Of a DNA stretch of 64,000 bases, positions 19,988-30,728 are shown in pieces. This DNA is from Beijerinckiaceae bacterium (GTDB lineage Bacteria; Pseudomonadota; Alphaproteobacteria; Rhizobiales; Beijerinckiaceae). The position numbers and the translations under genes were made by a program. The stretch is taken from NCBI GenBank assembly GCA_947456505.1, contig CANGTC010000001.1, positions 62,001 through 126,000 on the forward strand, in the 5' to 3' direction. The stretch's first letter is position 1. Each line of letters starts with the position of its first letter. Below the pieces are notes generated by a model. That model ran no database searches and was not told the DNA's origin. It was given only the letters and a program-made list of their open reading frames with translations.

Positions 19988-22153
19988 CTAACATTCCGCA
20001 ACAAGCTCCTTCGCCATACGATCAAAAACACCATCCCAATCGCCAGGCCTCTCCTGACGAAAAAGTCGCATGGTAGGATACCAGGGCGTGTCTTCGCGAT
20101 CTAGCAACCAACGCCAATCCGGCACAAACTGCAATGCGAGCCAGGTCCGCACCCCAAGAGCGCCAGCCAGATGGGCGACCGAGGTATCGGATGTGATGAC
20201 AAGATCACAACATTTCATGACAGCAGCCGTATCAAGAAATGCCTGCGGTCCAGCGTCGAATTCATTTCCAAGAACCTCGACCGCCATACCCGATGGCAAG
20301 TCCACCACCTGCATCTCTCCGTCACCCTTGTGAAGGCTGATCAGACGAACATCAGAAATTTGCGAAATTGGGTAAAACTGGACCAAGGGAAATGATCGCC
20401 CGCGATCAATCTTGTTTTTGCTTCCCTGCCAGCAAACGCCTATTTTGAACCCACGCCGTCCGAGTTTTTCCCGCCAATGCTCGATGCGGTCTTTGTCGGC
20501 GCTTAGATAAGATGTTTTTGCGGGTATGGTGGCCAAATCGGTTTTGAGCGCCATCGGCAGGCTGAGTAAGGGAATATGATAATCAAACGCTAGAGAGGGA
20601 TCATTTTCATCGACTATTTGAAACTCCCCATCAAGACCCGCCATCAAGGACCTGAGGTTTGCGCGCGGAGCGAATAAAACTTTCTCGGACAGATGATTGA
20701 GGCTCGCGACATATCGCGAGAACTGAATGGCGTCACCAAGGCCTTGCTCTGGATGTATCAAAATCGATTTTCCTGTCAGGTCTTCCCGCCCTAGCCAACA
20801 GGGCTTCGGAAAGAGACGGTGACCTTGAGGAACTTTTTGCTTTTTACGCCACTCATATAAATTCAACCCTTTTTGAAAATCTCCAATCAAAAGACATGCA
20901 ATCGCCTTGTTCCAGTATGCATCCACATAGTCAGGGTCAATGGAGATTGCTTTTTCATAGCTGGCGATTCCTTCTGCAATGCGTTTCATGGCGACCAATG
21001 GAATGCCGCGGTTAGAATGAGCCTCGGCATAGTCGGGGTCCAGACGGGTCGCCGCATCATAGCTCGCGACGGCCTCGTCCATTCGCATGAGATCGACAAG
21101 AGAGACGCCCCGATTATTGAATGCTTGCGGATAATCCGGTTTCAGGGATAGCGCCATATCATAGCTCTTGACCGCCTCTTCCTGCTCATTGGTGACGCTG
21201 AGGGCGTTTGCATAATTGTAATGAGCCTCTGCATAATCAGGTTTCAGAAAAATGGCTTGCCGATGGCTCGCCAACGCCTCCTCCAGTCGATCCAGCCTCT
21301 TCAAGACATCGCCACGATTTGAATAGGCTTCCGCATAATCAGGCCTCAGCGCAATAGCCTGATCGTAACTGATGACCGCTTCGTTCAAGGCCTCCCGTTC
21401 CTGGAGTACATTGCCCAGGCCACAAAACGCGTCCGATTGGTCCGACCTGATCGCAAGGGAATTTGCGTAACTTCTTATAGCTTCGTCTAACCTCTTTTGA
21501 TCTCTGAGTGCGTTCGCCAGATTTAAATGCGCCTCAGCTAAAGCAGGCTCAAGGATGATCGCCGTTTCATAGCTCAAGATGGCCTCATCGATTTTCTTGC
21601 CCCGTCTGAGCGCTACGCCACGATTTGAGAAAGAAAGCGCATAGGCCGGATCAAGCGAGACAGCTTTATCATAACTGTCAACCGCATCCTCATAGCGCCC
21701 CAGTTCCTGAAGAACGCCGCCCTGATTATTATAGGTTGAAGCCATATCCGGCATGATGGCGATTGATTGTTCATAACTGGCCAGCGCATCATCCAAGCGT
21801 TTCATATCGCTCAGCAAATGACCACGTTCACAATAAGCGTCCGCATCCATGGCGCCGAGCAGACGAGCTACGTCATAGCAGGCTAGCGCATCGTCAAAAC
21901 GTTTCAGATCATGAATGGCCCGTGCGTAATTTATGTAAACTTGCCCAAAATCAGATTTGACCACTATTGCTTTTTGGAAAAACTGCTCCGCTTCAATCAG
22001 GTCTCCCGACCCGTGCGCAGCAAGGGCCGACAGATGCAAGACATCAAAATGCGTCGGATCGTTCAGGAGAATGGTTTTATAAATCACCCTCGCCTCTTCC
22101 AGGCGCCCCTGCTGATGCAGCGCAAAGGCGCGCTCCAAGATCTGTTTGGTCAT
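19988..22153 (-). CDS. TPR-repeat protein with C-terminal glycosyltransferase-like domain (SPINDLY/GT9-like)
   Basis: Many TPRs (SYDKAVSLDPAYALSFSNRGVALRRGKKIDEAILSYETAI...) then CCDLVITSDTSVAHLAGALGVRTWLAL; start MTKQILERAF at 22153. Confidence 0.85.
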   Translation of the reverse strand: MTKQILERAFALHQQGRLEEARVIYKTILLNDPTHFDVLHLSALAAHGSGDLIEAEQFFQKAIVVKSDFGQVYINYARAIHDLKRFDDALACYDVARLLGAMDADAYCERGHLLSDMKRLDDALASYEQSIAIMPDMASTYNNQGGVLQELGRYEDAVDSYDKAVSLDPAYALSFSNRGVALRRGKKIDEAILSYETAIILEPALAEAHLNLANALRDQKRLDEAIRSYANSLAIRSDQSDAFCGLGNVLQEREALNEAVISYDQAIALRPDYAEAYSNRGDVLKRLDRLEEALASHRQAIFLKPDYAEAHYNYANALSVTNEQEEAVKSYDMALSLKPDYPQAFNNRGVSLVDLMRMDEAVASYDAATRLDPDYAEAHSNRGIPLVAMKRIAEGIASYEKAISIDPDYVDAYWNKAIACLLIGDFQKGLNLYEWRKKQKVPQGHRLFPKPCWLGREDLTGKSILIHPEQGLGDAIQFSRYVASLNHLSEKVLFAPRANLRSLMAGLDGEFQIVDENDPSLAFDYHIPLLSLPMALKTDLATIPAKTSYLSADKDRIEHWREKLGRRGFKIGVCWQGSKNKIDRGRSFPLVQFYPISQISDVRLISLHKGDGEMQVVDLPSGMAVEVLGNEFDAGPQAFLDTAAVMKCCDLVITSDTSVAHLAGALGVRTWLALQFVPDWRWLLDREDTPWYPTMRLFRQERPGDWDGVFDRMAKELVAEC

Positions 22154-22454
22154 ATTCGAGGCCCCGAGCTTCGGTGGAAGGATGTCGCTTTGGACAGCAC
22201 GATCAACGCCACGCCTTCGAACAACTATCATGAACTACTGGTGACAGGCCCCTTCTCTTGCAGCGCGTCAGGGACGCTACCCAAGCAGCTCCAGAAAATG
22301 GCGCGCAATCCTCAATCCTTACAAGAAAAATGCTCAGCAATCCAGCCATTTAGGCGTCGCGGGGATCAAGACGCTCTAAGAGCGCTTCGAGCGTCTCAGA
22401 TCGGCCGCGACATCCGGGACCAGCCCGTCACCAATATCAAAAATGATGAACTGG

Positions 22455-29806: not shown

Positions 29807-29877
29807 CCATCGAACGCCTCCTGCGCAGACAGGTATGATAACCCCACTTGCGCATGTACGGGCGAGGCGTTCGATGG
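29807..29877. repeat. perfect 14-bp inverted repeat with 43-nt spacer
   Basis: ccatcgaacgcctc (29807-29820) and gaggcgttcgatgg (29864-29877) are exact reverse complements. Confidence 0.9.
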
Positions 29878-29960
29878 ACAGGCCTTCTGAGAAATCGCTT
29901 GCTAAGGCCATTCCTCCTAGGTTAACTGATTAACTTGTTGGGATGCCTCAGGAAGTACCG

Positions 29961-30728
29961 ATGTCCGCCGTAAATTTTGTAGGTCACTTCATCGAAGAAT
30001 GGTCTCGATCCCGGCATCATTGTCGCAATATTCTCATTGCGGGCGTTTTCGATGATCGCGCTTTGAAGAAAATCATCAAAAACACAGGTCAAACAAACAT
30101 TGTTTTTGTTTCGGGCGCCAGCTTAAAAAAATCAGTCGATATTGGCGTCGTATTAGCTGATATGGAACCAGACCAACTGCTGATCATTTCCCGACTCGAA
30201 GATGTTCCACAAGCAGTTCTGGATATTTTTATCGCGCTTTTCACCGGGAACAAAATCAATCTTCAGGTTGGCGATCCTCCGCGAGATGTGACAATCGACC
30301 TGCCGCATTTTTCGCTAATCTGCACGATTGGATCTAATTACAAATTTTCACGAGAAATATTTGAGATGTTCGATGTAAAGGTGCTCCTCGGAAATAACGT
30401 TGAGATTTCGACGGCTGTGAGCAAACCGGTCGAGACGAGCGGTACCAAAGTGCGGACTGACAAGTCCTTGACGCCAAAAATTTCCTTGGACTTCACCGTA
30501 ATTTCTCACGAAATGTCCATTATTCTTCGGATCGACTCCTATTTGGGCGAAAACCCCGACTGGTATCAAAGTATTTCTTACACCCCGGCAGATGAGCCCG
30601 GGGGAACCTACTCCGTTCTTGTGCGGGGCGGCACAAAAGATTTGGCGCAGGTCGTTTACGACAAGTTCAAATGGATTGGCCATCTGGCGATCGAGCATGA
30701 TGGCAAGGTCTTTATCGGTGGACTTTAA
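29961..30728 (+). CDS. degenerate RuvB-like AAA+ domain protein with unknown C-terminal domain
   Basis: NILIAGVFDDRALKKIIKNTGQTNIVFVSGASLKKSVDIGVVLADMEPDQLLIISRLEDVPQAVLDIFIALFTGNKINLQVGDPPRDVTIDLPHFSLICTIG aligns by eye with the RuvB P-loop-to-sensor-1 stretch, but catalytic motifs are lost. AGGAAG RBS before ATG at 29961. Confidence 0.72.
   Translation: MSAVNFVGHFIEEWSRSRHHCRNILIAGVFDDRALKKIIKNTGQTNIVFVSGASLKKSVDIGVVLADMEPDQLLIISRLEDVPQAVLDIFIALFTGNKINLQVGDPPRDVTIDLPHFSLICTIGSNYKFSREIFEMFDVKVLLGNNVEISTAVSKPVETSGTKVRTDKSLTPKISLDFTVISHEMSIILRIDSYLGENPDWYQSISYTPADEPGGTYSVLVRGGTKDLAQVVYDKFKWIGHLAIEHDGKVFIGGL

Follow-up and report, generated by a model that had tools for sequence, protein, structure and literature searches.

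What is a gene for a RuvB-like protein doing in a catabolic gene neighborhood, if that protein has lost the residues that make RuvB an ATPase? RuvB is among the most conserved of bacterial motors. AAA+ pseudo-ATPases are known as a class, yet we know of no described bacterial pseudoenzyme of RuvB, and we found none that derives from RuvB in open-access papers. The gene lies in a stretch of 64,000 nucleotides from a Beijerinckiaceae genome (the window). A previous reading of this DNA, made from the sequence alone and without database searches, suggested that the gene encodes a catalytically dead relative of RuvB, fused to an unfamiliar C-terminal domain and possibly imported with a mobile or defense module. 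We refer to the gene as pseudo-RuvB. We asked if the protein truly derives from RuvB, if it is conserved or decaying, and what it might do.

The gene and its surroundings

The pseudo-RuvB gene sits between two TctC genes. Its neighbors are catabolic: they encode UbiD-like decarboxylases (named from sequence) and TctC/Bug-type solute receptors. Two features are needed at this point:

29961-30728, + strand: coding sequence of the pseudo-RuvB protein, 255 amino acids; the open reading frame is also readable from an ATG at 29943
29807-29877, + strand: perfect 14-bp inverted repeat, a strong predicted hairpin, upstream of the gene

The open reading frame (29943-30728, + strand) reads MPQEVPMSAVNFVG... 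The ATG at 29961 is the likely start codon. A site that resembles a ribosome-binding site (AGGAAG, 29950-29955) lies ahead of it, and in the alignment, it coincides with the start of the only full-length homolog (see below), whose protein begins with MPMSAIRFVG. The sequence-only reading noted that the gene is AT-richer than its neighbors, and the numbers agree: the gene has a GC content of 0.45-0.48 and a GC3 of 0.51, versus 0.62-0.70 and 0.73-0.82 for the immediate neighbors.

The arms of the inverted repeat are separated by 43 nt, and its folding z score is -4.6. We found no second copy of it in the window's genome or in the homolog's genome, and a search of Rfam gave no match.

The N-terminal half derives from RuvB

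Several lines of evidence show that the N-terminal half of the protein derives from the large ATPase domain of RuvB:

29961-30395, + strand: RuvB large-ATPase-like domain, residues 1-145 (identified by Pfam RuvB_N, PDB sequences, hhalign, and AlphaFold2 with Foldseek)

First, residues 33-133 match RuvB_N from Pfam (PF05496) with 27.4 bits (E = 3e-6), which is just above the gathering cutoff of 27 bits; the homolog by itself falls short of this cutoff. The window's protein also matches RuvB chains in the PDB (E = 7e-7) and RuvB models from NCBIfam (E = 5e-7). It does not reach the cutoff of the RuvB equivalog TIGR00635 (25 bits vs. 299 bits).

Second, we used hhalign to compare the two-member family to 18 RuvB sequences from the same order. 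The alignment covers 132 columns, with a probability of 94.9% and E = 4e-8. As a control, we compared the family to a RarA-like protein from the same genome and obtained no match, so RuvB is specifically the closest AAA+ protein and we rejected RarA as the ancestor.

Third, a RuvB profile gives the N-terminal half of the window's protein 32.5 bits, while the best score among 4,000 shuffled sequences was 11.9 bits. Together with the PDB match and hhalign, this control rejects a chance resemblance. The same profile gives the homolog by itself just 11.1 bits, so the window's copy is the less diverged from RuvB of the two.

Predicted structures lead to the same place. A first AlphaFold model, with the two homologs as the sole rows of the alignment, had a pLDDT of 51, and Foldseek matched it to RuvB in the PDB with E = 9e-5. 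A second model, for which we added 25 RuvB N-terminal domains, had a pLDDT of 74.7 and matched RuvB with E = 5e-10 (rmsd of 3.3 over 142 columns); its likeness to RuvB was partly helped by construction, while the first model's was not. The profile search and the AlphaFold model that had been proposed as checks thus both point to RuvB (95% probability from hhalign), and the Pfam, PDB, and NCBIfam matches and the shuffled control all support the original claim that this stretch is collinear with RuvB.

Overall, pseudo-RuvB resembles the large ATPase domain of RuvB (PF05496; TIGR00635) in being collinear with it for about 140 residues, in having the same predicted alpha/beta core, and in keeping the insert that forms the presensor-1 hairpin. 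At the hydrophobic positions that are conserved in this fold, 27 of 33 are kept in both homologs.

Loss of the ATPase motifs

We aligned both homologs to 25 RuvBs and read off what stands in the place of each motif:

30042-30062, + strand: Walker A place, GVFDDRA for GPPGLGKTT, 2 residues shorter
30183-30200, + strand: Walker B place, IISRLE for FIDEIH (IVSQLE in the homolog)
30321-30335, + strand: sensor 1 place, CTIGS for GATTR (CIIDP in the homolog)
30354-30374, + strand: place of the arginine-finger box, EIFEMFD for PLRDRFG (ILYEMFD in the homolog)
30252-30302, + strand: presensor-1 beta-hairpin, residues 98-114, retained (from the alignment and the model)

At the Walker A place, the aligned residues are GV--FDDRA in the window's protein and GE--VEDRK in the homolog. 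The trans-acting Glu/Asp of AMED is gone as well (LFTG in the window's protein and LLTD in the homolog). The loss of Walker A, Walker B, and sensor 1, which had been noticed from the sequence, is therefore confirmed by alignment to RuvBs. As judged from the alignment, every nucleotide-binding or hydrolysis motif that we checked is lost, and pseudo-RuvB should have no usable ATP site, although it may have a non-canonical site for nucleotides.

The lid (RuvB-S) and winged-helix (RuvB-H) domains of RuvB are absent too, and a beta-rich domain of 82 residues stands in their place. So, unlike RuvB, pseudo-RuvB lacks Walker A, Walker B, sensor 1, the arginine finger, the lid, and the winged helix. 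With the motifs, the small (lid) domain, and the DNA-binding domain all lost, it cannot be a branch-migration motor.

A homolog with the same losses

We found one full-length relative, on contig CAMDOY010000035.1 (L032:8001-8774, G036:C35). This assembly is labeled "Rhizobium sp. Q54," and it is a metagenome-assembled genome from a second species of the genus to which the window's genome belongs. The two proteins align without gaps over 255 residues and are 46% identical. The identity is 45% in the N-terminal domain, 15% in the linker, and 59% in the C-terminal domain.

Both copies are under purifying selection. Across the whole gene, the nucleotide identity at codon positions 1, 2, and 3 is 0.61, 0.74, and 0.40; within the C-terminal domain, it is 0.72, 0.88, and 0.37. 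pN is 0.32 versus a pS of 0.72, which corresponds to a dN of about 0.43 and a saturated dS of at least about 2.5. Constraint is strongest on the C-terminal domain.

Intact motifs in a close homolog would have suggested that the window's copy had decayed locally. Instead, the homolog has lost the same motifs, and this, together with dN versus the saturated dS, indicates a conserved pseudoenzyme and rejects local decay. The proposal that the protein is a pseudo-ATPase is well supported.

Pseudo-RuvB does not replace the canonical RuvB. The homolog's genome has a full ruvB (450 bits), and in the window's genome we see the 3' end of ruvB (72 bits, C80:15874-16038), which is presumably cut by the end of the contig; both known copies of pseudo-RuvB come from incomplete metagenome assemblies. 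Since canonical ruvB is kept in the one genome, and at least its 3' end in the other, pseudo-RuvB is an addition.

The C-terminal domain

The remainder of the protein has two parts:

30396-30479, + strand: linker, residues 146-173, with low model confidence and the 15% identity between homologs given above
30480-30725, + strand: C-terminal domain, 82 residues, predicted to be ferredoxin-like with ACT/PII-like topology (from the model)

In the model that includes the RuvB rows, the C-terminal domain has a pLDDT of about 80 and a predicted order of beta-alpha-beta-beta-alpha-beta-beta. We therefore describe it as a predicted ferredoxin-like fold, although this prediction is built on an alignment of two sequences. 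For the first model, Foldseek found weak fold matches to ACT- and PII-like proteins (TM1266 [2nzc], SbtB, and TTHA0516). With its size of about 80 residues, the domain may resemble ACT/PII-like regulatory domains, if the predicted beta-alpha-beta-beta-alpha-beta topology is right. Unlike them, it has no sequence similarity to any family, and ligand residues are not recognizable.

This domain had been called unfamiliar, and searching with it alone led to no family. There was no match in Pfam, even up to E = 10, no credible match among PDB sequences, and none that was convincing in PHROGs. Short matches in three distant genomes (E = 0.005-0.009) were treated as chance.

Possible functions

Our main reading is that pseudo-RuvB is a conserved pseudo-ATPase that acts independently of ATP, either as an adaptor or as a regulator (probability of roughly 0.6). 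Its role would be non-enzymatic. The RuvB-derived half would be a rigid alpha/beta scaffold with a protein-binding surface that includes the presensor-1 hairpin. The essential contact would lie in the C-terminal ferredoxin-like domain, and its target would be either a partner protein or a small molecule. In short, what was once a motor probably now serves in binding or regulation.

A related case is the clamp loader of E. coli, whose delta and delta-prime subunits are catalytically silent AAA+ proteins that keep the fold as a protein-binding piece. What we propose for pseudo-RuvB is similar, in that an AAA+ fold would bind protein without ATP turnover. But delta and delta-prime keep their lid and collar domains and work in a pentamer with active subunits, while pseudo-RuvB lacks the lid and collar and derives from RuvB. 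If our reading is right, this pairing of a new domain with a RuvB core that is conserved and ATPase-dead would show a motor recruited as a scaffold.

A more specific idea is that pseudo-RuvB is a decoy for RuvA. In RuvB, the presensor-1 hairpin and a helix of the large domain form the binding site for domain III of RuvA (PMC9477746; PMC2628435). The hairpin of pseudo-RuvB might bind domain III in competition with RuvB, and so damp or redirect Holliday-junction branch migration or fork reversal, with the C-terminal domain regulating this effect or adding oligomerization. In the window's protein, the hairpin is kept better than any other motif: 7 of the 15 conserved columns are identical, 6 of the 8 hydrophobic positions are kept, and it is modeled as a hairpin (strands 98-103 and 108-113). 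That RuvB is specifically the closest AAA+ protein fits as well. However, the homolog keeps just 2 of the 15 columns and 4 of the 8 hydrophobic positions, and conservation peaks in the C-terminal domain instead of on the hairpin surface. So this model is attractive for the window's copy and is weakened by the homolog. Binding to RuvA via the hairpin is possible and weakly supported, and we consider the decoy model as a whole to be rather unlikely. A fuller version, in which pseudo-RuvB would be an ATP-independent antagonist or modulator of RuvAB, with the dead RuvB domain on domain III of RuvA and the ferredoxin-like domain acting as a sensor that controls it, strikes us as quite unlikely. If pseudo-RuvB does touch RuvA, it would be a natural handle on the control of recombination.

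Distribution and genomic context

Pseudo-RuvB belongs to a very rare family. It is present in 2 of the 51 genomes of the genus, and profile searches of 397 genomes from the family, 398 from the order, 385 from the class, and 399 from the phylum found no further credible members. Pattern scans of 85,000 genomes, which depend on near-exact matches to short peptides and are blind to relatives that are more distant, returned the same single relative and no other. There were no relatives in viral contigs, phages, or plasmids, so we rejected a phage or plasmid origin. A candidate on a Mesorhizobium plasmid (H2, E = 0.1) was not credible.

The two genomes carry the gene at different places. The homolog's genome has a TctC-UbiD pair that is orthologous to the window's (the UbiD proteins are 97% identical over 304 residues), but pseudo-RuvB is missing from that site, and unrelated open reading frames lie upstream of TctC (L097 2206-3877, - strand). 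Instead, the homolog is in another AT-rich patch, with a TPR-glycosyltransferase-like gene on one side and a GT14 gene on the other. Because pseudo-RuvB is found in 2 of 51 genomes, at different sites, with both copies AT-rich, it is plausible that it was gained horizontally.

Might a mobile or conflict module carry pseudo-RuvB as cargo, for example as an antiphage, anti-plasmid, or immunity-like protein that hops between sites? Its rarity in the genus, the AT-richness of both copies, and the orthologous site that lacks the gene are what one would expect, but no module is visible around it. PADLOC had no match for the window's protein. For the homolog, it reported a weak and probably spurious match to HORMA (residues 21-78, 18 bits, E = 5e-4), which overlaps the RuvB-like region. 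The window contains no tRNA, and except for the upstream hairpin, there are no repeats around the gene. When we compared the two loci, we found no constant neighbor and no partner gene, defense gene, or mobile element that was common to both. With the missing relatives in phages, viral contigs, and plasmids, this leads us to view the cargo explanation as unlikely. In other words, of the suggestion that the gene was imported with a mobile or defense module, the import fits these data, and the module is not supported by them. More broadly, since no neighbor is common to both genomes, the context does not indicate a partner; like the small number of known homologs (two), this counts against our reading of pseudo-RuvB as an adaptor or regulator.

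It is very improbable that the gene is a functionless, decaying piece of ruvB that was fused by chance to another open reading frame: the protein is short and its active-site motifs are all gone, but this explanation is already contradicted by an independent species that keeps the same 255-amino-acid architecture in frame, by pN being far below pS, and by second codon positions being the most conserved (88% in the C-terminal domain).

Two other genes near the copies caught our attention. The GT14 gene (Core-2/I-branching enzyme) that adjoins the homolog (L032 8861-9709, + strand) is very AT-rich. We found it in none of the other genomes of the genus, and because these include the window's genome, we rejected a functional link. 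The window also encodes an AT-rich TPR protein whose C-terminal part is weakly similar to glycosyltransferase 9 (19988-22231, - strand). A gene of this TPR-glycosyltransferase-like family is 8 kb from pseudo-RuvB in the window and directly beside the homolog. The link is weak: the two genes are not each other's closest matches, and the family is scattered, with 7 copies in the window's genome, 5 in the homolog's genome, and 7 in a third species of the genus.
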